This document shows positions 6,063-19,194 of a DNA stretch of 64,000 bases, piece by piece (the first letter of the stretch is position 1; the number at the start of each line of letters is the position of its first letter). The position numbers and the translations under genes were made by a program. The notes under the pieces were generated by a model. The model saw only the letters and a list, made by a program, of their open reading frames with translations. It did not search any database and had not been told where the DNA came from. This DNA comes from Actinomadura rayongensis. GTDB lineage: Bacteria > Actinomycetota > Actinomycetes > Streptosporangiales > Streptosporangiaceae. The stretch covers positions 1 to 64,000 of the forward strand of contig NZ_WUTW01000004.1 in assembly GCF_009831215.1 (NCBI RefSeq), read 5' to 3'.

Positions 6063-6854
6063 TCAGCGGGTCGCGGTGACGGTGACGGTCGCCATGCCCG
6101 GTTCGATGAGGCCCGGGCGCGACAGCCGGTCGATGACGGTGGTCACGTCGTCCGGGCCGATGCCGGGCAGGGCGCTGATCGCCGGACCCAGGTGCTGGAT
6201 GGTCATCCGCCAGAACCGGCCCATCGGGGTGTCATGGACCGCGGTGGGGCACGTGATGCGCATCTCGACGTCGGTCAGGCCGCGACCGGCCACGTCGTAG
6301 GGCAGGTCGAGCGGCCACTCGCAGTCGGTGCCGATCCGCTCCGCGAGCACCGTGAACACGCCCAGGGACACCTTGCGGTAGGCCTCGTCCCGTGCCGCCC
6401 ACAGCGGGAACAGGGCCGACTCCTCCAGGACCAGCCGGCCGCCGGGGGCCAGCCATCGGGCGATGTCCGCCAGGACGCGGTCGCGCTCGGGGAGGTGGAC
6501 CAGCAGGTAGCGGGCATGGATCAGGTCGAAGGACGCGTCGGGGAACGAGTCGGACGTCACGTCGTGGCGGACGTACTCCAGGTTGGGGTGGTCGGAGGCG
6601 TCCAGGAACCGCAGGTCCAGGTCGGTCGCGGTGACCTGCGCGGCGGGGTGGCGTTCGGCCAGGCGGCGCGCGACCGATCCGGTGCCCGCCGCCAGTTCCA
6701 GGCAGCGGCGCACGGGACGGCGCGGCAGCGCGTCCAGGGTCGCGAACGAGACCGGATCCAGCGCCGCGCACAGCGCCTCCAGGCGCTCCCGCTCGTCGGC
6801 GTCTTCGTGGCCGAAGACCGTGTCGCCGTAGCGTTCGGCGTTGCGGGTCGTCAT
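6063..6854 (-). CDS. class I SAM-dependent methyltransferase
   Basis: A 263-residue methyltransferase with the SAM-binding motif ELAAGTGSVA near residue 52, an acidic second motif (TATDLD) and a post-motif region FDLIHARYLLVHLPE typical of class I small-molecule enzymes. Its ATG overlaps the stop of the upstream FMN oxidase as ATGA, so translation is coupled. It is the distal gene of the leftward pair diverging from the synthase operon, so it may methylate a product of that pathway (inference). It ends one base from the convergent GroES-like gene. Confidence 0.9.
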   Translation of the reverse strand: MTTRNAERYGDTVFGHEDADERERLEALCAALDPVSFATLDALPRRPVRRCLELAAGTGSVARRLAERHPAAQVTATDLDLRFLDASDHPNLEYVRHDVTSDSFPDASFDLIHARYLLVHLPERDRVLADIARWLAPGGRLVLEESALFPLWAARDEAYRKVSLGVFTVLAERIGTDCEWPLDLPYDVAGRGLTDVEMRITCPTAVHDTPMGRFWRMTIQHLGPAISALPGIGPDDVTTVIDRLSRPGLIEPGMATVTVTATR

Positions 6855-8044
6855 GCCGTCATTCCTTTCTCGGTGGGCGGAACGGCGCGGACGTCGGCTT
6901 CCGACAGGGACGCGCAGGTCCGGTGGCCGGTCAGCGCGAGCGCGCCGGTGAACTCTTCGCGCAGGCTGCGCAGGACGTGTTCGACGCCCGCCTGTCCCCC
7001 GACGGCGAGGCCGTACAGCCAGGGGCGTCCGATCATCACGGCGTCGGCTCCGAGCGCCAGCGCGATCAGCGCGTCGGTGCCGGTGCGGACGCCAGAGTCG
7101 AACAGGACGGGGACGCGTCCGCCGACCGCCGCCGCCACCGGGGGCAGGCAGTCCAGCGCGGCCACTCCGGCGTCGAGCTGCCGGCCGCCGTGGTTCGACA
7201 CGATGAGGCCGTCGACGCCCTCCGCGCACAGGCGGGTCGCCTCGTCGGGGCGGCACACGCCCTTGACGACGATCGGGAGGCTGGTCCACGACCGGAGCAG
7301 CGCCAGGTCCTCGGGCTGGAGCGCGGGCTTGGTGAAGACGCGGTTCCACGTCTCGGCCGCCGCCGCGACCATCTCCGGGGTAAGGCCGTCGGGCACGGAT
7401 CCGAACCCCGCCAGCTCCCAGAACCGGCGGTCCGAGACGTAGTTGCCGAGGCCGTGCGCGTGCTGGAAGGGGAAGAAGCCCGAGGACAGTTCCCGCGTCC
7501 GCCACCCCGCCACGTGGCAGTCGCCCATCACCACGATCGCGGTGTATCCGGCGGCCTCGGCCCGCTCGATCAGGGAGCGGGCCAGTTTCTCGTCGTCGGG
7601 CCAGGCGAACTGGAACCATCGTTGCCCGTTCGGTGCAGCCTCGGCGACGTCCTCCAGCGGGGTCGACGTCACCGCCGACAGCACCTGGACCGCTCCGACC
7701 CGCTCGGCCGCCCGCGCCGCCGCCGCCTCGGCCTCGGGGTGCGCCAGCTCGGCCACCCCCGCCGGGGCCAGCATCACCGGCATGCTCATCGGGGTGCCCA
7801 GCACGGTGCGGGACGGGTCGGCGGGCGCTCCGTCGCGCAGCACCCGGTAGGTCAGCCCCCAGCGGCCGAACGCCGCCTCGTTCGCCGCCACGGTCCGCTC
7901 GCGGCCCGCGCCGCCCGCGATGTAGTCGAAGTGTTCGCGCGGCATGTCGCGCCGCGCCGCCTCTTCCAGTCCTTTCGGGGTGAAGGGGAACGGACTCCCT
8001 CCGGCGGCGAACACCTGGGTTTGGTAACTGCCCGTATAGGCCAC
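6851..8044 (-). CDS. FMN-dependent alpha-hydroxy-acid oxidase / lactate 2-monooxygenase-like
   Basis: A 397-residue flavoenzyme of the glycolate oxidase/lactate monooxygenase family, predicted to oxidise an L-2-hydroxy acid. The substrate-proton-abstracting His lies in SNHGGRQLD, the FMN-contacting lysine in IVVKGV, and DSGVRTGTD and GRPWLYG close the barrel. The frame is open far upstream, but the GTG at 8044 has AGGAG 8 nt before it and starts just before the conserved segment. It is divergent from the synthase operon across the dyad operator and coupled to the methyltransferase. Its role may be tailoring or precursor supply; the true substrate is unknown. Confidence 0.88.
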   Translation of the reverse strand: MAYTGSYQTQVFAAGGSPFPFTPKGLEEAARRDMPREHFDYIAGGAGRERTVAANEAAFGRWGLTYRVLRDGAPADPSRTVLGTPMSMPVMLAPAGVAELAHPEAEAAAARAAERVGAVQVLSAVTSTPLEDVAEAAPNGQRWFQFAWPDDEKLARSLIERAEAAGYTAIVVMGDCHVAGWRTRELSSGFFPFQHAHGLGNYVSDRRFWELAGFGSVPDGLTPEMVAAAAETWNRVFTKPALQPEDLALLRSWTSLPIVVKGVCRPDEATRLCAEGVDGLIVSNHGGRQLDAGVAALDCLPPVAAAVGGRVPVLFDSGVRTGTDALIALALGADAVMIGRPWLYGLAVGGQAGVEHVLRSLREEFTGALALTGHRTCASLSEADVRAVPPTEKGMTA

Positions 8045-8124
8045 AGCACCGTCTCCTCTCGTTGACGTCTTCCACCCCAGTAGTTCGCCGACCGCCGGGC
8101 GGATCAACGAGATCCCGCACCCTG

Positions 8125-8210
8125 ACATGTCACGCCTTGGGAGAACGTCACGCCTTCTCGTCGGGCGCTCGTCCGCGCAGGGCGTGACAACCGGAAAAGG
8201 CGTGACATGT
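8125..8210. promoter_or_regulatory. 86-bp dyad-symmetric operator in divergent promoter
   Basis: Four copies of one motif. ACATGTCACGCCTT (8125-8138) and GTCACGCCTT (8147-8156) read rightwards; AGGGCGTGAC (8179-8188) and AAGGCGTGACATGT (8197-8210) read in reverse. The outer pair is an exact 14-bp inverted repeat, and within each arm the copies are exactly 18 bp apart. It lies between the divergent FMN oxidase and synthase genes. The same 18-bp-spaced motif recurs at 17666-17695. Confidence 0.8.
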
Positions 8211-8252
8211 GGACCGCGCGACGTCCTGGCAAGGAAATCCGGGGGCGGAGTA

Positions 8253-8276
8253 GGCAGGGAAGAAGAACCCCCTGCC
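8253..8276 (+). other. 5' UTR hairpin before the synthase operon
   Basis: GGCAGGG (8253-8259) pairs perfectly with CCCTGCC (8270-8276) around a 10-nt purine-rich loop, 22 nt before the first synthase start codon. It could affect mRNA stability or act as an attenuator. No alternative pairing was evident by eye. Confidence 0.4.
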
Positions 8277-8298: not shown

Positions 8299-9576
8299 AT
8301 GCCAATCGAAGCGAAAACGACCATCGCCGGCTCACACGTGAACGGGCACGGATTGCCCGGGAAGGCCGTCCGGCGGAGAACCGCCGTCGTCTTCCCGGGG
8401 CAGGGCGCTTACCGGCCGGGCATCCTCCAGGAGCTGCGCACCGCCTCGCCCGAGTCCGGCGCCGTCCTGGAGGAGATCTCCGCCGCGCTCGACGGCGGAC
8501 TCGACCGGCTGCTCGGCAGGGACAGGGACGCGTCGCCCGAAGACCTCGCGGCCGACGCGCCGGACCTGCTCCAGACGGCCGTCTTCGCCGCCTCGGTCGC
8601 GCTCTGGGCGGCACGCCACCGCGACCTGCCGGACGACGCCGTGCTGGTCGGGCACAGCCTCGGCGAGATCGCCGCCGCCACCTGCGCGGGAGCCTTCTCG
8701 ATCGCCGACGGCGCCCGGATCCTCCAGGCGCGCAACGACGCGCTCATGGACCTCACCGTCCGCGACGGCGGCATGGTCGCACTCGGACTCGACGACGCGC
8801 GGGCCTCGGCCCTGCTCCGTTTCGTGGACGACCCCACCCTCGCCGTGGCGTGCCGGAACGCGCCGGACCAGACGGTGGTGTCCGGCTCGTCCGGCGCCCT
8901 GGCCCGCGTCGGGGAGACCGCGCGGGCCCTGGCCGTGCCCGCCGCCGCGCTCCCCGCGCCGTTCCCGTTCCACGGACCGCGCATGGCGCCGGTCGCGGCC
9001 CGGCACCGGGAGCTCATCGACGGCATCCCGCAGCGGCCCCTGTCCTGGAACCTCTACTCCACGCTGCGCCGCCGGCACCTGACCGACGCCGACGACATCG
9101 GCGCGACGCTGGTCGACCAGGAACTCGTCACCGTGGACTTCCTGGACGCGGTCCGGACGCTCCACGCGCACGGCGTCCGCGACTTCGTCGAATGCGGGGC
9201 CGGCGAGACCATGGTCCGGGCCGTGCGCCGCAGCGTGCCCGCGGTCGACTGCCGGACCTGGGACGAACGGCAGGAACACCGGCCGGCACCGCCGGTCGAG
9301 CGGTCCCCCGCGCCGGACGAGCCGCCGGAGGACGTCCTCGACGCCCTGCGCGCCCTCTACGCCGAAGTCCTCGGCTACCCGGTGGAGGTCATGGCGGACG
9401 ACGCCGACCTCGAAGCCGACCTCGGCGTCGACTCCCTCAAGCAGACCGAACTGCTCGTCCGGGCGGCCGGGCGGTTCGGGCTGCCCGAGACCGGCGATCT
9501 CAAGGTGTCCGACCTCCCCACGCTGGCGTGCGTGGCCGACGAGGTCCGCCGCCGCCTCGACCACGGGACGCGGTGA
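8299..9576 (+). CDS. malonyl-CoA:ACP acyltransferase fused to acyl carrier protein (MAT-ACP)
   Basis: A 425-residue two-domain protein. Residues about 28-330 form a FabD-type acyltransferase: FPGQG near the start, the nucleophile Ser120 in GHSLGE, and a histidine in FPFHGPRM. After a Pro-rich linker, residues about 350-420 form an acyl carrier protein whose phosphopantetheine serine is Ser379 in LGVDSLK, a form seen in PUFA- and enediyne-type carriers. ATG at 8299 preceded by GAAGGA. It lies 5 bp before the multidomain synthase, so the two should work as one enzyme: loading, tethering, then condensation and reduction. No phosphopantetheinyl transferase gene is present in the window. Confidence 0.92.
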   Translation: MPIEAKTTIAGSHVNGHGLPGKAVRRRTAVVFPGQGAYRPGILQELRTASPESGAVLEEISAALDGGLDRLLGRDRDASPEDLAADAPDLLQTAVFAASVALWAARHRDLPDDAVLVGHSLGEIAAATCAGAFSIADGARILQARNDALMDLTVRDGGMVALGLDDARASALLRFVDDPTLAVACRNAPDQTVVSGSSGALARVGETARALAVPAAALPAPFPFHGPRMAPVAARHRELIDGIPQRPLSWNLYSTLRRRHLTDADDIGATLVDQELVTVDFLDAVRTLHAHGVRDFVECGAGETMVRAVRRSVPAVDCRTWDERQEHRPAPPVERSPAPDEPPEDVLDALRALYAEVLGYPVEVMADDADLEADLGVDSLKQTELLVRAAGRFGLPETGDLKVSDLPTLACVADEVRRRLDHGTR

Positions 9577-9581
9577 GGGCC

Positions 9582-12500
9582 ATGTCGGAGTTCGACGGCA
9601 GGACCGTGCTCGTCACCGGGGGTGGCCGCGGGATCGGCAGGACCATCGGCGCCCGCTTCGCGCTCGACGGCGCCCGCGTCTTCCTCAACTACTTCCACTC
9701 CCGCGAGGCGGCCGAGGCCACGGCCGCCGAGCTGACCGAGGCCGGGGGCCGCGTGGAACTGCTCCACGGCTCCGTCGCCAAGCCCGACGACCTGTGCCGC
9801 ATGATGGACCACGTCCGGGCCGCGGCGGGCGGCCTCGACGTCCTGGTCAACAACGCCGCGCTGGGCACGCTCGCGCCCATGCGCGAGCTGACGGAACGCG
9901 CCTGGACGCAGAGCTGGCAGACCACCGTGCAGGGGACCGTCGACTGTTCGCTCCTCGCCGCCGAGATCATGCGGCCCGGCGGCGCGATCGTCACGATGTC
10001 CTCGATCGGCGCCGGTCTCGTCCTCGGCAACTACGCGGCGCTGGGCATCGCCAAGGCCGCGGTGGAGTCGGCGACCCGCTACCTCGCGGTCGAGCTGGCC
10101 CCGCTCGGGATCCGGGTCAACTGCGCGTCGTGCGGCATCATCGAGAGCCCGGTGCTGGGGAAGTTCCCCGAGTCGGACGAGCTGCGCGACGTCGTCGCGG
10201 CGGCGACGCCGTTCGGCCGCCTCGCCGAGCCCGACGAGTACGCCGACCTCGTCCTGTTCCTCGCCTCGGAGCGGGCGCGGTGGATCACCGGTCAGACCGT
10301 GCTCGCCGACGGCGGGCTCAGCCTCGGCGCGCCCCTGCTGACTCCGCCGACACACCGGGCCCCGAAACCGGCTCCCGTCGCGTCGCCCGAGCCGGTGGAC
10401 GCGGGCGAGGCGATCGCCATCGTGGGGACGGGCTCGGTGGTGCCCGGCGCGGACGGCTCCGACGCCCTGTGGAAATTGCTCACCTCCGGGGATCCGGTCT
10501 TCCGGGAGCCCGGACGGCGGTGGTCGGACAGCTACCACGCGCCCGACCTCATCTACGCGCGGGAGCTGGGGTTCGTCACCACCGACGAACCGGACCGTGC
10601 CGAGGACTACAACACCACGTGGCTGCGCAGGGCCCTTGCGGAGGCCTGGGACGGCGTGGTCAGCCGTCCGGACGACAGGACCGCGCTCTACGTCGGGGCG
10701 ACGCCCGACGGGAGCCAGCACCTGGAGGAGTCCGTGGTCCTTTCCGCTCTGCGCCGGGGCCTCGCCGGAGCGCCGGGCGCCGAGGAGGTGATCCGAGCGG
10801 CGCGCGAGCACCTGCGCCATGCCGCGCCGGATCCCGTCCGCTGTCTTCCGCACGTCGCGGTCACGGCGGCGGCCGAAGCCGTCCTGCCGCCGCGCTCCGA
10901 CGTCACGGTCGTCGACACGGCGTGCAGTTCGTCGCTGTACGCCGTCGACCTCGGCATGCGCCGCCTGCGCTCGGGCGCCTGCGACGTCGCCGTCTGCGGG
11001 GGCGCCTTCGCCCTCACGCCGCGGTCGGTGGCGCTGTTCGCCGCGCTGCGCGGGCTCAGCCCCACGGGCGCCGTGCGCGCCTTCGACGGCGCCGCCGACG
11101 GGACGCTGTTCGCCGACGGCGCCGCCGTGGTCGTCCTGAAGACCCTGGAGCGGGCGCGTGCGGACGGGGATCGGGTGCTCGGCGTCCTCACCGGCCTCGG
11201 CACGTCCTGCGACGGCAAGGGCAAGGCGATCTACGCGCCCAGCAGCCGGGGGCAGGTCCTGGCCGTCCGGCGCGCCTACCGGGCGGGCCCGTCGCCGGAG
11301 GACGTCTCGTGGATCATCGCGCACGGCACCGGGACGCGGGCCGGGGATCAGGCCGAGTTCGCCACGCTGGCGTCGGAGTTCGCGCACGGTCTCGTGCTGA
11401 CGTCGAACAAGTCGCTCATCGGGCACACCGGATGGCCGTCGGGCGTGCTGTCGGTGATCCACGCCGTGGAGGGGCTGCGGCGCTCCGCGATCCCCGCCCA
11501 GCGGCCCGCCGTCACCGCGCCCAGCCCGGACCTGCCCGCCCGGTTCACCGTCCCGGACGGCGAGGTGCCCTGGCCCCGTCCGGACGCCGGTGTCCGGACC
11601 GTGGCCGTCGACTCCTTCGGCTTCGGCGGCACCAACGCCCACGCCGTGATCACCGAGGACCATCCCGGGCTCCAGGCGAACCCGAGGCCGGCCGAGCGGG
11701 ATCCGGTCGTGCTGGTCGGCTGGAACGCCGTCGTGCCCGGACGGCCGTCCCGGCAGGACGTCGCGGACTGGCTGGTCTCCGGCGCGGGCGAGACTCCGGC
11801 GGCGTTCGCGACGGTGCCCCCGGTGCCGTTCCGCATGCTCCGGACGCCCCCGGCGACCCACCGGACCCTCGACCCGGCGCACCGGCTCGCGCTGCTGGCG
11901 GTCGACGGGCTCCACGACGAACTCGGCGCGTTCTGGTCCGAGGTCAAGGACACCTGCGGAGTGATCGGTGCGCATTGCGGTCTCACCTCGCATGCGGCGC
12001 GGCACACCGTCCGCTACGCGCTGGACGACCTCCGCGGCGCCGTGGGGCGCGCCGCGTCGTTCGACCGCTTCGCCGCCGAGGCGCGCGACGCCGTCGAAGA
12101 GGCCACCGAGGACTCCTTCCCCGGCGGCATGCCGTCGGTGATGCCGGCGCGCGTGGCCGCCGCGCTGGACTTCCACGGCCTGGCGATGAACTGCGACACC
12201 GGCACGTGCTCCGGCGTGGACGCGCTGCGGGCGGCCTGCGATCACCTGGCCTCCGGCGACCTCGACCTCGCCCTGGTGGTCTGCGTCAACGCCCACAGCG
12301 ACGCGGCGTGGGCCGACCTCGTCCTGCCCGCGTTCGACGACGGCGTCGCCGAGCTGGGCGAGGCGGCGGTGTGCTTCGCGCTGACGCGGCGGTCCCACGC
12401 CCTGCGCAACGACCTGCCGGTGCTCGCCACGCTCGGCGATGCGACCGGCGTCAGTGCGGAGGGCTCCCGTCCCCGGCCGCTCGAACGGCGCAGCTACATG

Positions 12501-14999
12501 GCGGCCGACTCCGCCTTCGCGGTGCTGGCCCACGTCCTGCGGCGGGAGGACGCGACGGTGTGCTGGACGGACCCCTTCACCGGCCGCACCGCGCGCCTGG
12601 CCGTCGCCGCTCCCGCTCCCCCGGCGTCCGAGGTCGTGCATCGTTACGCCCTCGCGCACCGGCCCGTCCCGGCCGTGGCCGCCGAGACGGCGGTCGAGAT
12701 GTTCCCCGACCACTGCCTCGTGCTCACCAACGGCCCGGAACCGCCCGCGACGCTCCCGCCGCACACGCTCGTCGTCTCCACGGCGGACGTTCCGGGGCGT
12801 CCCGGCGTGCACACGGCCGTGCCGGACGAGGGCGTCATCGCCGGCCTGGTCACGGCGACGGGCTGGCGGCCCCGGCACCTGCGGATCGTCGCCGACGCCG
12901 ACGCCGACGTCCTGGACCTCCACGACCTGGCCTTTCTCGCCCTCAAGGAGTGCTTCGACGACCTCGGGCGCGGCAGCGTGGCGACGCTCGTGCACAACGC
13001 GGTCGCCCACGGGCAGCCGGTCGCCCGGGCCGGACTGTTCACCGGCTTCGGCAGGACGGTGGCCTGCGACCTTCCGGACGCCACGGTCCACTGCGTCCTG
13101 TCCGACGCCGACATGCCGGAGAACGGCCTGCGCCATTGGGCCGAAGAACTCGGACGGCACTCCACCACCGGGACCGTTCTCCGCATCGGCGCCGACCGGT
13201 TCGAGCCGCTGCCCACGCCCGCGCCCGAACCACCGGCGACGCCGTCTCCGCCGCTCGACGACTCCAGCGTCATCGTCGCGGCGGGCGGGTCGCGCGGCAT
13301 CACGGCGGCGCTGCTGGACGATCTGACGCGCGCCGTCCGGCCGAAGATCTGGATCCTCGGGCGCGGCGAGATCACCGGCGGCCCGGCGCTGCCGCCCGGC
13401 ACGTCGCGCAGCGACCATCTCCGCGCCCGCAGACGCGACGACCCGTCCGTCTCGGTCGCGGCGGCCAGCCGCGAATACGACCGGCACGTCGAACGGCAGG
13501 AGACCCTCGACACCCTCCGGGCGCTGCGGGACCGGTGCGGCGCCGACCGCGTGACGTACCTGACGTGCGATGTCCGGGATCGGGCGGCGGTCCGGCGGAG
13601 CGTCGAACAGATCCTGGCGGAGGACCCGGTCATCGACCTGCTGCTGTTCGCGGCGGGCGTCAACCGGTCCACCGAGACGCGCCGCAAGTCGCTGGAGGAG
13701 TTCCGGCTCGTCCGGGACGTCAAGGTCCGCGGGCACGCGCACCTGCGCGACGCCTTCGGCCCGCGCCGGCCGCGGACATGGATCGACATGGGCTCGGTCT
13801 CGGCGTTCACCGGCCAGCCCGGCAGCACCGACTACACCTCCGCCAACGACTACCTGGCGACCGCCGCCCAGCAGGCGAACGCGGAGGGCTTCGACCACCG
13901 CACCATCGCCTGGCCCATCTGGAAGGAGACCGGGCTCGCCTCCGGCGCGATCATGCGCGAGCAGCTGGCCCGGCAGGGCTACACCGCGATCACGACGGCG
14001 GAGGGCGTCCGGCAGTTCCGGCACGTCCTGGCCGGGCCGTCGCATCCGCCGTGCACGCTGCTCCTCGGCCCGCTGGACGCGGAGGTCGCCGACCGGCGTT
14101 TCCCGGGCGTCATGGCCGCGGCCGACGCACCGGACCACCCGCTCCTGAGCGAGGCTCCGTCCGGGGCGGGCGACGTCGGGTGCAGCCTCGACGTCGCGCG
14201 CCACGCCTACCTCGACGACCATCTGGTCGACGGCAGGCCGACCGTTCCGGGCGCCTTCCTCGTGGAGGCGGCGGTCGAGGCCGCGGCGGCGGTGTGCCCG
14301 GGGCGTCTCCCCGTCCGCGTTCTCGACGGGATCTTCGAGGGCTTCCTCAAGGCGCACCCGCGCACCGGCACCGTCGACTTCCGGATCAGGACCGCGATCG
14401 ACCGCTCCGACGACCGGGAGACCCACGTCGCCGTCACCTTCCACAGCGACCTTCCCGGCGGGCTCGCGAGCCGTCGGCACGCCCGCTGCACCGTGGTCCT
14501 CGCCGACGCCGCACCGGACGCGCCACGGCATCCGATCGTCGTCCCGCCCGGCGCCGTGCCGCTGCCCGACCCGTACCACCTGCCGAACGGCTCGATCGTC
14601 CTGCGCGGGGCCTTCGCCACGACCGCCGCCACCTCCGTGCACGACGGCACCGCCTACGGCCGCTTCGCGCCGCCCGAACACGTCCACCGGCCGCCCTTCA
14701 CCGGCTTCCGCACACCGGCGCTCCTGCTCGACGCGCTCGCCCGGATCGCCGTTCTGCTGGAAGGGACGGCGACCGACCTCCCGGTCCACGCGCTCAAGTC
14801 CTTCCGGGAGATCACCTTCCACCGGACGGGCAGCGATCGCGACGTCGCGGACCGGGCCGTCCTGCTGAGCGCCGTGCGGGACCACGGCTGTTCGTGCACC
14901 GCCGCCGACGAGGAAGGGGAGGTCGTCCTCACGATCCGCGGTCTCGAAGGCCATCCGAAGGGCGTGGCCCGCCTCGACCCGGCCCCGGATCGTCCTTGA
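9582..14999 (+). CDS. multidomain iterative synthase: ER(FabL)-KS-CLF-like-KR-DH
   Basis: An 1805-residue polyketide/fatty-acid synthase. Residues 1-250 are an SDR of the FabL enoyl-reductase type, with Y151-x6-K158 rather than the ketoreductase Y-x3-K spacing. A ketosynthase follows (about 275-690) with Cys448 in DTACSSS, His581 in HGTGT and His615 in NKSLIGHT. A shorter KS-like domain (about 700-1020) keeps Cys876 in DTGTCSG but has no HGTGT or second histidine, like chain-length-factor domains. Next come a KR (about 1225-1460; GGSRGITA, Tyr1418, Asn1422) and a hot-dog dehydratase (about 1520-1800; His1547 in HLVDGRPTVP). With MAT-ACP this gives a complete iterative cycle resembling PUFA synthases in content but not in order. 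No thioesterase is visible. The product is probably a fatty acyl or polyene chain (inference). Confidence 0.9.
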   Translation: MSEFDGRTVLVTGGGRGIGRTIGARFALDGARVFLNYFHSREAAEATAAELTEAGGRVELLHGSVAKPDDLCRMMDHVRAAAGGLDVLVNNAALGTLAPMRELTERAWTQSWQTTVQGTVDCSLLAAEIMRPGGAIVTMSSIGAGLVLGNYAALGIAKAAVESATRYLAVELAPLGIRVNCASCGIIESPVLGKFPESDELRDVVAAATPFGRLAEPDEYADLVLFLASERARWITGQTVLADGGLSLGAPLLTPPTHRAPKPAPVASPEPVDAGEAIAIVGTGSVVPGADGSDALWKLLTSGDPVFREPGRRWSDSYHAPDLIYARELGFVTTDEPDRAEDYNTTWLRRALAEAWDGVVSRPDDRTALYVGATPDGSQHLEESVVLSALRRGLAGAPGAEEVIRAAREHLRHAAPDPVRCLPHVAVTAAAEAVLPPRSDVTVVDTACSSSLYAVDLGMRRLRSGACDVAVCGGAFALTPRSVALFAALRGLSPTGAVRAFDGAADGTLFADGAAVVVLKTLERARADGDRVLGVLTGLGTSCDGKGKAIYAPSSRGQVLAVRRAYRAGPSPEDVSWIIAHGTGTRAGDQAEFATLASEFAHGLVLTSNKSLIGHTGWPSGVLSVIHAVEGLRRSAIPAQRPAVTAPSPDLPARFTVPDGEVPWPRPDAGVRTVAVDSFGFGGTNAHAVITEDHPGLQANPRPAERDPVVLVGWNAVVPGRPSRQDVADWLVSGAGETPAAFATVPPVPFRMLRTPPATHRTLDPAHRLALLAVDGLHDELGAFWSEVKDTCGVIGAHCGLTSHAARHTVRYALDDLRGAVGRAASFDRFAAEARDAVEEATEDSFPGGMPSVMPARVAAALDFHGLAMNCDTGTCSGVDALRAACDHLASGDLDLALVVCVNAHSDAAWADLVLPAFDDGVAELGEAAVCFALTRRSHALRNDLPVLATLGDATGVSAEGSRPRPLERRSYMAADSAFAVLAHVLRREDATVCWTDPFTGRTARLAVAAPAPPASEVVHRYALAHRPVPAVAAETAVEMFPDHCLVLTNGPEPPATLPPHTLVVSTADVPGRPGVHTAVPDEGVIAGLVTATGWRPRHLRIVADADADVLDLHDLAFLALKECFDDLGRGSVATLVHNAVAHGQPVARAGLFTGFGRTVACDLPDATVHCVLSDADMPENGLRHWAEELGRHSTTGTVLRIGADRFEPLPTPAPEPPATPSPPLDDSSVIVAAGGSRGITAALLDDLTRAVRPKIWILGRGEITGGPALPPGTSRSDHLRARRRDDPSVSVAAASREYDRHVERQETLDTLRALRDRCGADRVTYLTCDVRDRAAVRRSVEQILAEDPVIDLLLFAAGVNRSTETRRKSLEEFRLVRDVKVRGHAHLRDAFGPRRPRTWIDMGSVSAFTGQPGSTDYTSANDYLATAAQQANAEGFDHRTIAWPIWKETGLASGAIMREQLARQGYTAITTAEGVRQFRHVLAGPSHPPCTLLLGPLDAEVADRRFPGVMAAADAPDHPLLSEAPSGAGDVGCSLDVARHAYLDDHLVDGRPTVPGAFLVEAAVEAAAAVCPGRLPVRVLDGIFEGFLKAHPRTGTVDFRIRTAIDRSDDRETHVAVTFHSDLPGGLASRRHARCTVVLADAAPDAPRHPIVVPPGAVPLPDPYHLPNGSIVLRGAFATTAATSVHDGTAYGRFAPPEHVHRPPFTGFRTPALLLDALARIAVLLEGTATDLPVHALKSFREITFHRTGSDRDVADRAVLLSAVRDHGCSCTAADEEGEVVLTIRGLEGHPKGVARLDPAPDRP

Positions 15000-15095: not shown

Positions 15096-16202
15096 ATGAC
15101 GCTGTCACGTCCCCCCGGCCGAGGACCGAACGGCGCGTTGCGGAGACTGCTCGCCGAGGCGCTGGCGCGCGGGCTGGGCCGACGGGTCACGGCCGCCGCG
15201 CCGACTCGGGACCCGGTGACCGTCGACGCCCCGCCGGGCGGCCCGATCGCTCCGACGGCGCCGCCGCGCGGCACCGGCCGCGCCCGCGCGCACCCGAGCA
15301 CGCCGGCGCCCGACGCCGAGGCCATGGTGCGCGCGTTCGCCACCATCGACGACGGCTTCGGCGGCGGCCACTCCCGCGTCGCGCTGGCCGCGTACCTCGC
15401 CCGCGACATCGCCCCCCGGCTCGGCGACATCGGCGCCGGCGGGGCGGCGCGCAGCGGGCTCTGGTCGGCCGCGACCCGGCTGACCTACCGATGCGGGTTC
15501 ATGTGCTTCGACGAGGAACTCCCCGATCTCGCGCAGCGCTACTACCGCGTCGCGCTGGACCTGGCGTCCGCGGCCGGGGACGCCGCCGCCCGCGCGGTCG
15601 TCCTGCGCACGATGTCGAACCAGGCCCGGCTGCTCGGCCACCGCCGCCGCGCGGTCCATCTCGCCGAGGCCGCCGTGGTGACCGGCGGACGGGCGGTCCC
15701 CCCGGCCCGCAGCGCGTTCCTGCTCGGCCAGGTCGCCGTCGCGTCGGCCGCCGCCGGTGACCGGACCAACGCGGTGTCGTCGCTGAGCGCGGCGGAGCGC
15801 CAGTTGAGCCGCGCCACGTCGCAGTCGGCGGCCGAGGACGCGGCGATGGGCGGCTACCATCTCGCCGCGCTGTGGCACCAGCAGGCCGCCGTCCGGGCCC
15901 TGCTGGGCGACCGGGCGGGCGCCGTCTCGGCGCTCGCCGTCTCCCTCGCGCACCGTCCGGCCCAGGAACGACGGTCCCGCACGATCACCCGGGCGCGTCT
16001 CGCGGAACTCCAGCTCGCCCAGGGCGAGGTCGAGCAGGCGGTCGGGACCTGGCACGCGTTCCTGGACGACTACCGCCACCTGCGCTCGGCCCGCGCCACC
16101 ACCGCGCTGCGCACCCTGCGCTCCCGGCTCGCCCCGCACGCGGCCGACCGGGACGTCGCGGGGCTCCTGGCGCGCGCCGGCGCCGAATCCCGGCCGCGCT
16201 GA
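15096..16202 (+). CDS. TPR regulator paralogue lacking the HTH domain
   Basis: A 368-residue protein closely related along its length to the regulator at 17806. Both share DDGxFGGG, a YR/YLCxFxCFD segment, LLGQVAVA and a WHAFLDDY ending near the C-terminus, with tetratricopeptide-like helices. The N-terminal HTH of the paralogue is missing: only its last few residues (ALGRRVT-like) remain, at residues 24-30. ATG at 15096 has GGGAG 7 nt upstream. It lies just after the synthase gene, in the same direction. It may bind a ligand or heterodimerise with the intact regulator rather than bind DNA (inference). Confidence 0.75.
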   Translation: MTLSRPPGRGPNGALRRLLAEALARGLGRRVTAAAPTRDPVTVDAPPGGPIAPTAPPRGTGRARAHPSTPAPDAEAMVRAFATIDDGFGGGHSRVALAAYLARDIAPRLGDIGAGGAARSGLWSAATRLTYRCGFMCFDEELPDLAQRYYRVALDLASAAGDAAARAVVLRTMSNQARLLGHRRRAVHLAEAAVVTGGRAVPPARSAFLLGQVAVASAAAGDRTNAVSSLSAAERQLSRATSQSAAEDAAMGGYHLAALWHQQAAVRALLGDRAGAVSALAVSLAHRPAQERRSRTITRARLAELQLAQGEVEQAVGTWHAFLDDYRHLRSARATTALRTLRSRLAPHAADRDVAGLLARAGAESRPR

Positions 16203-16211
16203 CCCGGGCGA

Positions 16212-17558
16212 TCAGACGAGCGAGTCGGGACGTTCCGCGACGGCACCGCCCGCCGGAGCGTCCTCGACCGGCCCGGCGGCCCGGACGGGGTAGGGCGTGG
16301 TGTCGACGGAGCGCCGCCGGCACGTCAGCGGCCCGAGGCCCGCCAGCGCCGCGACGACCTGCTCCCGCAGCCCCGCCGGGGCCGACCGGGTGACGACGAG
16401 CCCGAGCGCGGTGGCACCGGCCAGCGGCTCGGCCTCCAGATCCGCCAGACGGGTCACCACCCGCACCGCGGGGAAGCGGGCCGAGCGGCGGGCGACCCGC
16501 ACGTCCGGATCACGCTCGTCGGCGGCGAGGACGAAGGTCAGCTCGCTGCCGGACGACACCGAGGCGATCGTCTGCGCCCGGTCGGACGCGGCGTCGCACA
16601 GCACGTCGAAGTGGTGCCCGGCCAGCTCCGGGACGTGGTCGCGCAGCGCCGTCACGATCGGCAGGGCGTCCTCGACGGCCATGCCGGGGTCGATCACGAA
16701 GGACACCGCGTCGCGCGCCCGGGCCGCCGCCGGGACGTCCGCCACGTCGTGGACGACCTCGGCGGCGGGGCCCGCGCAGGCCGTCAGGACGGGGAGCGAC
16801 GCGTGGCGCCGGTCCCCGATCACCACGACGCGATCGCCCCGGGCCGCGTAGGCGGCGGCGTCGGCCTGGACGGCGGTCACCAGCGGGCACGTCCCGTCGA
16901 TCACCCGCAGCCGCCGCCGGGCCGCCTCCGCCCGGACCGCCGGGGGCACGCCGTGCGCGGGGAACGCCACCGGGGCTCCGTCGGGCACCGCGTCGAGGTC
17001 GTCGACGCAGACCACGCCGGCCTGTTCCCACCCCGTCGGCCACGGCGCGCCGGTGACGGGACGGCCGACGACGAACACCCGGCCGCCGTCCGATCGGGTC
17101 GCCGCGCGCGCCATGCCGTCGATCATCCGCGCCGCGCGCCGTCCGCCCCGGCACAGGGCCGGCATGTCGGTCACGAGCAATCGGCGGCTCCGCAGCAGCG
17201 CCGTCCATCGCCCCATCGCCGCGCTCACCGCGGCCGAGGCGACGCCGTCGTCGCGATGGGCCACGAGCGCGAATCCGCCGACGCCGCCGTCGCGGCCCAC
17301 CCACGAAACCGCGGACAGGACACCGGCGGCCGACGGCCCCGCGCCGATCTCCCCGCCGCCCGGCACCGCGCGCAATTCCACGACGCGATCATTTCCGGCG
17401 CCGCGCGCGAGCGTTTCGGACATCCATTCGACCAGCAAAGGGGCGGCGTCACAGCGGACCACGCCGCGTTCCGGATCAGTGAACCACGGCAGGACCAGCA
17501 CGCACCCGATCCGGCCGTCGGGGACCCGGACCTGCCGCCGCTGCAGAGTTAGTTTCAT
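16212..17558 (-). CDS. IspH(LytB)-like iron-sulfur protein with N-terminal extension
   Basis: A 448-residue homologue of 4-hydroxy-3-methylbut-2-enyl diphosphate reductase. The three cluster-ligand cysteines are kept with IspH spacing: Cys136 (LCRGGRRA), Cys224 (DGTCPLV) and Cys321 (LCDAASDRAQ). So are AHGV (His202) and a later His252. But the IspH HPEVEG segment holding the catalytic glutamate reads HASLPV here, and about 125 residues precede the IspH-like core. It therefore probably does a different reductive dehydroxylation or electron-transfer reaction, perhaps on an acyl chain made by the neighbouring synthase (inference). ATG at 17558 sits 4 nt after GGAG; a GTG one codon earlier is less well spaced. 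It converges on the truncated regulator with 9 bp between them. Confidence 0.8.
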   Translation of the reverse strand: MKLTLQRRQVRVPDGRIGCVLVLPWFTDPERGVVRCDAAPLLVEWMSETLARGAGNDRVVELRAVPGGGEIGAGPSAAGVLSAVSWVGRDGGVGGFALVAHRDDGVASAAVSAAMGRWTALLRSRRLLVTDMPALCRGGRRAARMIDGMARAATRSDGGRVFVVGRPVTGAPWPTGWEQAGVVCVDDLDAVPDGAPVAFPAHGVPPAVRAEAARRRLRVIDGTCPLVTAVQADAAAYAARGDRVVVIGDRRHASLPVLTACAGPAAEVVHDVADVPAAARARDAVSFVIDPGMAVEDALPIVTALRDHVPELAGHHFDVLCDAASDRAQTIASVSSGSELTFVLAADERDPDVRVARRSARFPAVRVVTRLADLEAEPLAGATALGLVVTRSAPAGLREQVVAALAGLGPLTCRRRSVDTTPYPVRAAGPVEDAPAGGAVAERPDSLV

Positions 17559-17584
17559 CACGCTCCACTGAACGCGCCAACGTT

Positions 17585-17665: not shown

Positions 17666-17695
17666 ATGTCTCGCTTGAACGGCATGTCTCGCCTG
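17666..17695 (+). promoter_or_regulatory. 18-bp-spaced direct repeats upstream of the TPR-HTH regulator
   Basis: ATGTCTCGCTTG (17666-17677) and ATGTCTCGCCTG (17684-17695) are 18 bp apart. They match the ATGTCACGCCTT core and the spacing of the synthase operator at 8125-8210. A TACGAT -10 candidate lies at 17735-17740. Shared sites suggest the regulator controls both itself and the synthase. Confidence 0.6.
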
Positions 17696-17805
17696 CGGTC
17701 GACGCGACGGAGGATTGAACGCAAAGAATCCAGGTACGATCCGCCCATGACTCCCAAGGCGAAGAACCGTCGGGAGCGCGACAATCCCCCTAGTGGAGCA
17801 CGGAA

Positions 17806-19194
17806 ATGGCGGATTCCCGGATCCCCAACCCTTTGCTGCGCGCCCTGCTCGACGAGACCGGATGGAGCGGTGCCGAGCTGGCGCGGCACGCCGCCGCGGT
17901 CGCGGCCGAACAGGGCTCCCCGCACACCTTCGACCGCAAGACGGTGTCGTTCTGGCTGACGGGGCGCCGTCCGCGACCGCCCGTTCCGGCGATCGTGGCC
18001 GAAACCTTCTCCCGTGCCCTCGGCCGCCGCGTGACCGTCGCCGAGACCGGTCTGGCCCGCGCGGCGCCGCGCCCCTCGGCCGCCCGCACGAGCCCGCACG
18101 CCGGACCGTCCGACCCCGCGGCGGCGCTGCGCGACCTCGGCCGGACCAAGCATCACGGGCCGGCGGACGCCGCGTACCGCCTCGCCCTGCTCGACGTCCC
18201 GACGTGGACCCGGGCCGCGGGCGGACGGACCGCGCCGACCATCCCGACGGACCAGGCCGAGACGGTGACCGCGCCGCAGGTGGAGACGGTCGAGCAGATG
18301 GTGCGGCTGTTCCTGGACAACGACGGCGCGTTCGGCGGCGGCTACGCCCGCGGGCCGCTCGCCGCGTACCTGGCCCATGACGTGGCGCCCCTGCTTCGGG
18401 CGTCCGCCCCGCCGCCGCTGCGCCTGCGGCTGCTCCGCGCCGCGACCCGGCTGACCTATCTGTGCGCGTTCACCTGCTTCGACGACGAGGAGCACGCCCT
18501 CGCCCAGCGCTACCACCGCGCCGCCCTCGACCTGGCCGTCGAGGCGGCGGACCCGGCGGGCTACGCTGTCGTCCTGCGGGCCATGTCGGTCCAGGCCCGC
18601 TCGCTCGGGCACCACCACGAAGCCCTCGTCCTCGCCGAGAACGCCGCCGCCACCGGGCAGCGGAAGGCGGGCCCCGCCCGGCACGCGTTCCTCCTCGGCC
18701 AGGTCGCCGTCGCCGCCGCGGCCGAGGCCGACCGCTCGACCGCGCTCTCGGCCCTCGCGGCGGCCGAACGCCTGCTGGACCGGTCGACCTCGCGGTCCAC
18801 GGCCCACCAGGTCCGGCCGTCGCAGACCGCGCCCGGGCCCGCGGACGTCATCGGGGGCTACCATCCGGCCGCGCTCGCCCACCAGGAGGCCGCCGTCCGG
18901 GCGCTGCTCGGCGACCTCCGGGGCGCCATCGCGGCGCTGAAGACCTCCCTGCGGCACCGGCCGTCCGACGAGCGCCGGTCCCGCGCGGTCACCACCGCCC
19001 GCCTGGCCGAACTCCAGCTGCGGACCGGGCACCTCGACCAGGCCGTCTGCACCTGGCACGCGTTCCTCGACGACTATCCCCATCTGTCGTCCGGCCGGGT
19101 GACCTCGGCGTTGCGCACCATGAAGGCCCACCTGCGTCCCCACGCCGACAACGCCGGAGCACGCCACCTCCTCGCCCGGGCCGCCGAGCTGTAG
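17806..19194 (+). CDS. HTH-TPR transcriptional regulator (cluster regulator candidate)
   Basis: A 462-residue regulator. Residues about 10-80 form a Xre-like helix-turn-helix with the pattern LLDETGWSGAELARHA, then a D-K-T-V-S-F-W-L recognition segment and RPRPPVPAIVAE. This N-terminus is common to a large actinomycete family of HTH proteins with tetratricopeptide sensor regions. The remaining residues are Ala/Leu-rich helical repeats, paralogous to the product of 15096-16202. ATG at 17806 has GGAG upstream. The 18-bp-spaced direct repeats in its promoter match those at the synthase promoter, making it the best candidate for the factor that binds both (inference). Confidence 0.85.
   Translation: MADSRIPNPLLRALLDETGWSGAELARHAAAVAAEQGSPHTFDRKTVSFWLTGRRPRPPVPAIVAETFSRALGRRVTVAETGLARAAPRPSAARTSPHAGPSDPAAALRDLGRTKHHGPADAAYRLALLDVPTWTRAAGGRTAPTIPTDQAETVTAPQVETVEQMVRLFLDNDGAFGGGYARGPLAAYLAHDVAPLLRASAPPPLRLRLLRAATRLTYLCAFTCFDDEEHALAQRYHRAALDLAVEAADPAGYAVVLRAMSVQARSLGHHHEALVLAENAAATGQRKAGPARHAFLLGQVAVAAAAEADRSTALSALAAAERLLDRSTSRSTAHQVRPSQTAPGPADVIGGYHPAALAHQEAAVRALLGDLRGAIAALKTSLRHRPSDERRSRAVTTARLAELQLRTGHLDQAVCTWHAFLDDYPHLSSGRVTSALRTMKAHLRPHADNAGARHLLARAAEL

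Follow-up and report, generated by a model that had tools for sequence, protein, structure and literature searches.

The locus raises the question of what a set of short repeats does in the space between two divergent genes, which protein reads them and with what effect on the flanking promoters. The window, that is the whole 64,000-nucleotide stretch of Actinomadura rayongensis DNA that was analysed, carries an oxidase gene to the left of the repeats and synthase genes to the right. These names, proposed in the preliminary description, agreed with the domains found (FMN_dh at 6851-8044 on the minus strand, AT-ACP plus polyketide synthase at 8299-14999 on the plus strand). The genes around the repeats were the following:

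6063-6869, minus strand: methyltransferase gene that follows the oxidase gene.
6851-8044, minus strand: FMN-dependent alpha-hydroxy-acid oxidase-type gene (FMN_dh), proposed left target.
8299-9576, plus strand: gene of an acyltransferase-ACP (AT-ACP) protein, proposed right target.
9576-14999, plus strand: polyketide synthase with SDR/ketoreductase, ketosynthase and dehydratase-type domains.
15096-16202, plus strand: second NsdA-family protein, without the N-terminal helix-turn-helix region.
16212-17561, minus strand: LytB/IspH-like protein with an N-terminal extension of ~125 residues, often a neighbour of the regulator; in the window its gene sits between both NsdA-family genes.
17806-19194, plus strand: NsdA-family regulator with an N-terminal helix-turn-helix-like domain and a TPR superhelix, the proposed binder (the 17806 protein in what follows).

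The half-site GTCACGCC was found at 8129 and 8147 on the plus strand and at 8181 and 8199 on the minus strand, at the positions first reported, and a direct count reproduced the step of 18 bp inside either arm. The longest exact inverted repeat in 8101-8235 was ACATGTCACGCCTT (14 bp, 8125-8138 and 8197-8210), which corresponds to the outer inverted repeat described earlier. Among 20,000 first-order Markov copies of the intergenic region, 127 contained an exact 8-bp repeat with a period of 18, and none contained one 8-mer repeated at this period on both strands. The inventory of four copies was correct and incomplete, a third pair upstream of the regulator gene being also part of the system:

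8128-8154, plus reading: left arm, direct-repeat operator TGTCACGCC-N9-CGTCACGCC, which would serve the leftward oxidase promoter.
8181-8207, minus reading: right arm, direct-repeat operator TGTCACGCC-N9-TGTCACGCC, which would serve the rightward synthase promoter.
17667-17693, plus strand: third pair, TGTCTCGCT-N9-TGTCTCGCC, preceding the regulator gene and flipped relative to its promoter.

When the window's genome was scanned with the pattern of the preliminary description, seven matches with up to two mismatches were obtained (three in the reversed control), and the only three with 0-1 mismatch genome-wide (8129, 8180 and 17668) all fell inside the window cluster. A looser pattern gave a fourth, unrelated match (C1:419342), with 10 matches in the reversed control; noise thus rose quickly in this genome as the pattern was loosened.

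Two other genomes, G011 and G176, the latter from another genus of the family, have this cluster too and keep both arms as well as the pair at the regulator promoter; their regulators were 88% and 78% identical to the 17806 protein, respectively. The preliminary description had named a lack of the motif in orthologous loci as grounds for refutation, and the motif occurred in both such loci that were found, so that its reading was not refuted in this way. Over 65 genomes of the genus, the loose pattern matched in 41, with 21 matches in Actinomadura rubrisoli (G062; reversed control 8) and 0-4 in the others, often below the control. The strict pattern was found in four of the 345 genomes of the order (18 matches in A. 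rubrisoli, two in A. mexicana (G056) and one each in G077 and G426; reversed control, 4 matches in 3 genomes) and in none of 394 genomes of the class, where the control gave 6 matches. A. mexicana, A. rubrisoli and G077 carry 55-56% identical relatives of the 17806 protein. G426 has its one strict match, yet no match to this protein at E<=1e-20, and the context of the match reads as repetitive coding sequence. With up to two mismatches allowed, 28 matches were obtained in A. rubrisoli (control 5). When the gap was left free between 0 and 30, the period was 18 in 19 of the 21 repeats of this genome, 19 in one and 10 in one (reversed control 1), indicating that the phase belongs to the system and was not imposed by the search. 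The exact 18-bp phasing of the first account holds in the window; elsewhere it is a strong preference and not absolute, as one oxidase-side arm in G176 has a period of 17 and one A. rubrisoli site a period of 19. Looser half-sites, TGTCNNGCTT, were found in 17 of the 345 genomes of the order (15 in A. rubrisoli, two in G024, one in each of the rest), with no convincing promoter outside the known genomes. Several of these matches, on inspection, were tandem or coding-like repeats, and the recurrent pairs in L054 were coding sequence. Upstream of 118 NsdA-family genes the period 18 was weakly in excess (17 versus 7.1 in mononucleotide shuffles) and the period 10 equally so (18 versus 4.5); the excess at period 10 being as large, an operator common to the whole family is not claimed.

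Promoter-like boxes were located next to each of the three pairs:

8077-8107, minus strand: oxidase boxes TTGATC (8107-8102) and TACTGG (8082-8077), separated by a 19-bp spacer, 20 bp from the left arm.
8226-8256, plus strand: synthase boxes CTGGCA (8226-8231) and TAGGCA (8251-8256), placed by hand from the conserved TAGGCAGG(G)AAGAAG.
17712-17740, plus strand: regulator boxes GGATTG and TACGAT.

On the synthase side the block TAGGCAGG(G)AAGAAG with TAGGCA lies 43 bp from the arm in the window, G011 and G176 by hand count, the best fit of the script having picked another -10 box than the conserved TAGGCA. On the oxidase side the boxes in G011 are TTGTTC and TACTGG, at the same distance as in the window; in G176 TTGATG is kept within 1 bp and TACTGG is not kept. 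Read against the motif arrow, the sites show a TTGNCN-like box at ~20 bp and a TACTGG-like box at ~45 bp. A box score of at least 8/12 was reached on the proposed side of 23 of the 35 scored sites, two coding-like ones having been left out, and on the opposite side of a single one (shuffles, 10%); a -35/-10 pair at such a constant spacing, confined to one flank, is that of a class I-like arrangement. The box consensus was derived from the scored sites themselves, so that the opposite side provides the fair comparison, and 12 of the 35 sites remained below the score. The same asymmetry was seen for TAC[TC] at +42-48 (12 sites versus 1 on the other side) and for TTG at +18-23 (14 versus 0). ORFs of at least 200 aa starting 40-320 bp away were found on the proposed side of 15 of 25 A. 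rubrisoli sites and on the opposite side of 4, a difference that was smaller at lower cut-offs (15 versus 8 for at least 150 aa, 19 versus 11 for at least 80 aa). Since both boxes and ORFs are one-sided, the operator comes to lie upstream of the -35 box, as in upstream activators, which pairs the left arm with the oxidase and the right arm with the synthase. The operators are most likely on-switches, acting by activation and not by repression.

We propose, as the model toward which we lean, that the two arms are independent operators, each bound head to tail by the 17806 protein in a class I-like activation. The operator unit would be the 9-bp TGTCNCGCY, repeated once head to tail 18 bp apart, with the -35-like box of the nearest promoter ~20 bp downstream of it. 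The left arm would drive the oxidase-methyltransferase genes and the right arm the AT-ACP/polyketide synthase genes. The regulator, bound head to tail on the two copies of an arm, would recruit RNA polymerase from upstream, and the variant pair TGTCTCGCY at its own promoter would exert a feedback of either sign.

The same operators and the same regulator could instead serve to repress both promoters, as is reported for Streptomyces NsdA, and we consider this unlikely. In the accessible part of the reports, NsdAsr reduces rimocidin production and the expression of its targets (PMC12243394) and NsdA is termed a repressor (PMC13098539). The operators described here are linked to a cluster, are made of direct repeats and stand in an activator-like position, upstream of the -35-like boxes and not over the core promoter. 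In addition, the 17806 protein falls far below the cut-offs of the equivalog models of Streptomyces NsdA and NsdB (88.1 versus 830 bits and 70.5 versus 700 bits), so that function need not carry over. Family membership itself is clear, with 334.1 bits against NCBIfam NF053720 (NsdA family; cut-off 75) over residues 11-458.

The structural model of the 17806 protein, with a mean pLDDT of 88.6, consists of an N-terminal helical domain, which we read as a helix-turn-helix, followed by a TPR-like superhelix, and the best 50 PDB matches listed were TPR proteins. Both parts are in keeping with the NsdA family, to which Streptomyces NsdA and NsdB belong. In the protein encoded at 15096-16202 an in-frame deletion, seen by comparison with G011, has removed the N-terminal helix-turn-helix region. 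This protein is unlikely to be a DNA binder, which leaves the 17806 protein as the only plausible one among the two NsdA-family proteins of the window; the 15096-16202 protein may be a modulator with TPRs only or a paralog in decay. Linkage points in the same direction in other genomes. Both strict sites of A. mexicana are 13 kb from its NsdA-family gene, that of G077 is 1.2 kb from the corresponding gene, and one A. rubrisoli site is on the same 24.8-kb contig as the two close paralogs of the 17806 protein. When 36 proteins were placed in a tree, one supported set of 15 (96/98) contained all eight regulators linked to an operator; this set also holds seven rows without a known site. The operator label changed three times on this tree compared to 7.3 times in shuffles, of which 1 in 500 was as low. 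Close relatives of the 17806 protein without a clear site were those of G023 (55%), G013 (51%, partial) and G150 (50%); G023 has a degenerate site only and G150 has none. Next to an NsdA-family regulator gene, the degenerate operator of G023 (L039:11073) lies upstream of a seemingly broken P450 gene. In 79 named NsdA-family loci, 34-52% identical, no site was found at >=15/16 (control 1), two of these loci being stretches of A. mexicana and A. rubrisoli that omit the sites of those genomes. We take the paired sites to be a real and conserved operator system of one regulator clade. The 17806 protein is most likely the binder, a view that rests on linkage, co-occurrence and phylogeny, all of them correlations.

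Another binder might be the IspH-like protein, the LuxR-family regulator at 32132-34738 or a protein encoded elsewhere, and we regard this as rather improbable. When seven operator loci were compared, a LytB/IspH-like gene was present in six of them, and the NsdA family was the sole ORF family that every one of them had. Most of these loci had been retrieved by way of their NsdA-family genes, which partly builds in the presence of this family, and the result is that no other family is common; the window was taken to 30 kb, with the 32132 gene outside, and the G023 site among the loci is the degenerate one. The IspH-like protein showed a LYTB domain only in the Pfam scan.

The preliminary description had seen a four-copy dyad, with one regulator controlling both directions and cooperative binding. 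The single regulator is retained, by inference, and is likely the 17806 protein; that the four copies form one symmetric dyad occupied as a whole, with cooperation across its centre, is very unlikely. The exact 14-bp outer inverted repeat would suit such a unit, and convergent arms are found also in G011, in G176 and in a different locus of A. mexicana. However, the spacing between the arms is not fixed across orthologs: the gap measures 26 bp in the window, 78 bp in G011 and 172 bp in G176, and 62 bp in the non-orthologous A. mexicana locus. Furthermore, most of the fetched A. rubrisoli sites are single arms with the same coupling to a promoter. The gap between the arms being variable while the distance from arm to promoter is kept, the arms are, as far as comparison of the loci can tell, two independent direct-repeat operators and not a single dyad. 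Cooperation is likely between the two copies inside one arm. A conserved helical phasing between the arms was considered in view of the difference between 26 and 78 (52 bp) and was abandoned in view of the gaps of 62 and 172 bp.

In A. rubrisoli, whose assembly is 96% complete, 7% contaminated and split into ~800 contigs, ~25 copies of the operator were counted (L184, L188-L204, L264-L268, L270, L303), mostly upstream of enzyme genes; L195, inside a coding-like ORF, and L269, with a coding-like flank, were dropped from the counts and third half-sites were merged at two places. That these copies are a dispersed repeat or a mobile element rather than a regulatory site is hardly credible in spite of their number, as the printed sites have half-sites and promoter-like boxes in common and not their flanks, and nearly all lie outside coding-like ORFs, most of them adjoining enzyme genes. 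Three half-sites in tandem, in 18-bp steps, were observed at L188:5329-5373 and L196:3784-3828.

A gene in the same direction with an enzyme-type Pfam match followed 21 of the 25 A. rubrisoli sites, the genes at L196, L266, L268 and L270 being outside the scan; at L188:14043, L194 and L204 the enzyme gene is not the first ORF. The targets comprise P450s (L189, L190, L200), terpene synthases (L191, L201, L264, L265, L267), a squalene-hopene-cyclase-like protein, KAS III-like proteins, an adenylating enzyme, flavin enzymes, and an LYTB fragment followed by a polyprenyl synthase. Terpene-synthase-domain matches numbered 22 in A. rubrisoli versus 6-8 in four relatives; the 22 matches, some of which are fragments at contig ends, were grouped into 19 loci. 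Half of the operators (13 of 26) had a terpene synthase no more than 6 kb away (expected 0.6; 12 of the 19 loci; binomial p 5e-15) and six of 26 had one within 1.5 kb (expected 0.18), in a hand-entered list of 26 sites that includes the doubtful two-mismatch site C653. In A. mexicana, the convergent arms are located between P450 and DXP synthase genes, with a terpene-synthase match ~3 kb away. None of the eight terpene-synthase matches of the window's genome was on the contig of the operators, so that the target in that genome is something other than terpenes. With so concrete an operator, fixed in its 18-bp phase, the regulons of the clade would become readable from sequence and open to testing. 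In A. rubrisoli one regulator might jointly switch on ~25 promoters, among them those of terpene synthases, P450s, a cyclase and a prenyl synthase.

Operators of cluster-situated regulators are already known, and the one found here would be of this kind. A resemblance exists with the operators of SARP regulators such as AfsR and PimR, which are also direct repeats bound by antibiotic-cluster regulators (PMC5930380, PMC10936776, in the parts available). In these sources the repeats bound by SARPs have a spacing of 11 or 22 bp (10 in one PimR site), compared to 18 bp here, where 11 or 22 bp was not the rule (19 of 21 repeats at 18 bp in A. rubrisoli). SARP repeats often overlap the -35 box, whereas the PimR site and the operator described here do not. 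The Pfam scan of the 17806 protein gave no family, hence no SARP domain, and no SARP-type family was seen in the 19 window proteins scanned, a subset of the ORFs. BldC of Streptomyces forms head-to-tail oligomers on direct repeats, as proposed here, according to the accessible part of PMC5859096. It is a MerR-like protein of 68 residues with sites of variable length, and is set beside the 17806 protein by its binding mode only. No description of the present operator was found in the literature searched, most subscription papers being outside reach, and a search with the letters of the motif gave nothing relevant by title among the papers listed. No NsdA binding motif was found in this literature either, including the available parts of PMC12243394 and PMC13098539; the former reports ChIP-seq and EMSA for NsdAsr, and the words "motif" and "footprint" do not occur in its available text. 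NsdA is widely distributed in Streptomyces and is a target for strain improvement (PMC13098539, available part).

The IspH-like neighbour has homologs in six of the 79 named NsdA-family loci (two Catenulispora, Longispora, Actinorhabdospora, A. mexicana and A. rubrisoli). Three cysteines are kept in eight homologs (C137, C225 and C322 in the window) and align with cysteines of solved IspH, which we take to be the ligands of the iron-sulfur cluster. The window protein has not retained the catalytic positions, presumably H41, E126, T167, S225 and N227 in E. coli IspH. A role as a sensor is speculation. On a wider scale, one may imagine that the NsdA-family clade is a new class of natural-product activators reading 18-bp-phased direct repeats, that in A. 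rubrisoli it has become a genome-wide switch for an enlarged terpene set, and that the IspH relative senses isoprenoid supply or the iron-sulfur state; taken together this is a tentative picture, and a doubtful one.

The pair at the regulator's own promoter differs from the two arms. It is kept in G011 and G176, where the -10-like box is TACAAT and TATACT, respectively, and the -35-like box is not kept; its orientation is flipped relative to the -10-like box, 41-44 bp away by hand measurement, which counts against the proposed model. When the fifth base of the half-site was compared by eye in the window, G011 and G176, it was always A in the structural arms (12 of 12) and always T at the regulator promoter (six of six). 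This split perhaps reflects two specificities or two modes. An extra site in G176 (L263:7441) has a mixed fifth base. The regulator's own operator, with T at the fifth base and flipped, is located at 17667-17693 in the window, at L038:8937 and at L183:11243.
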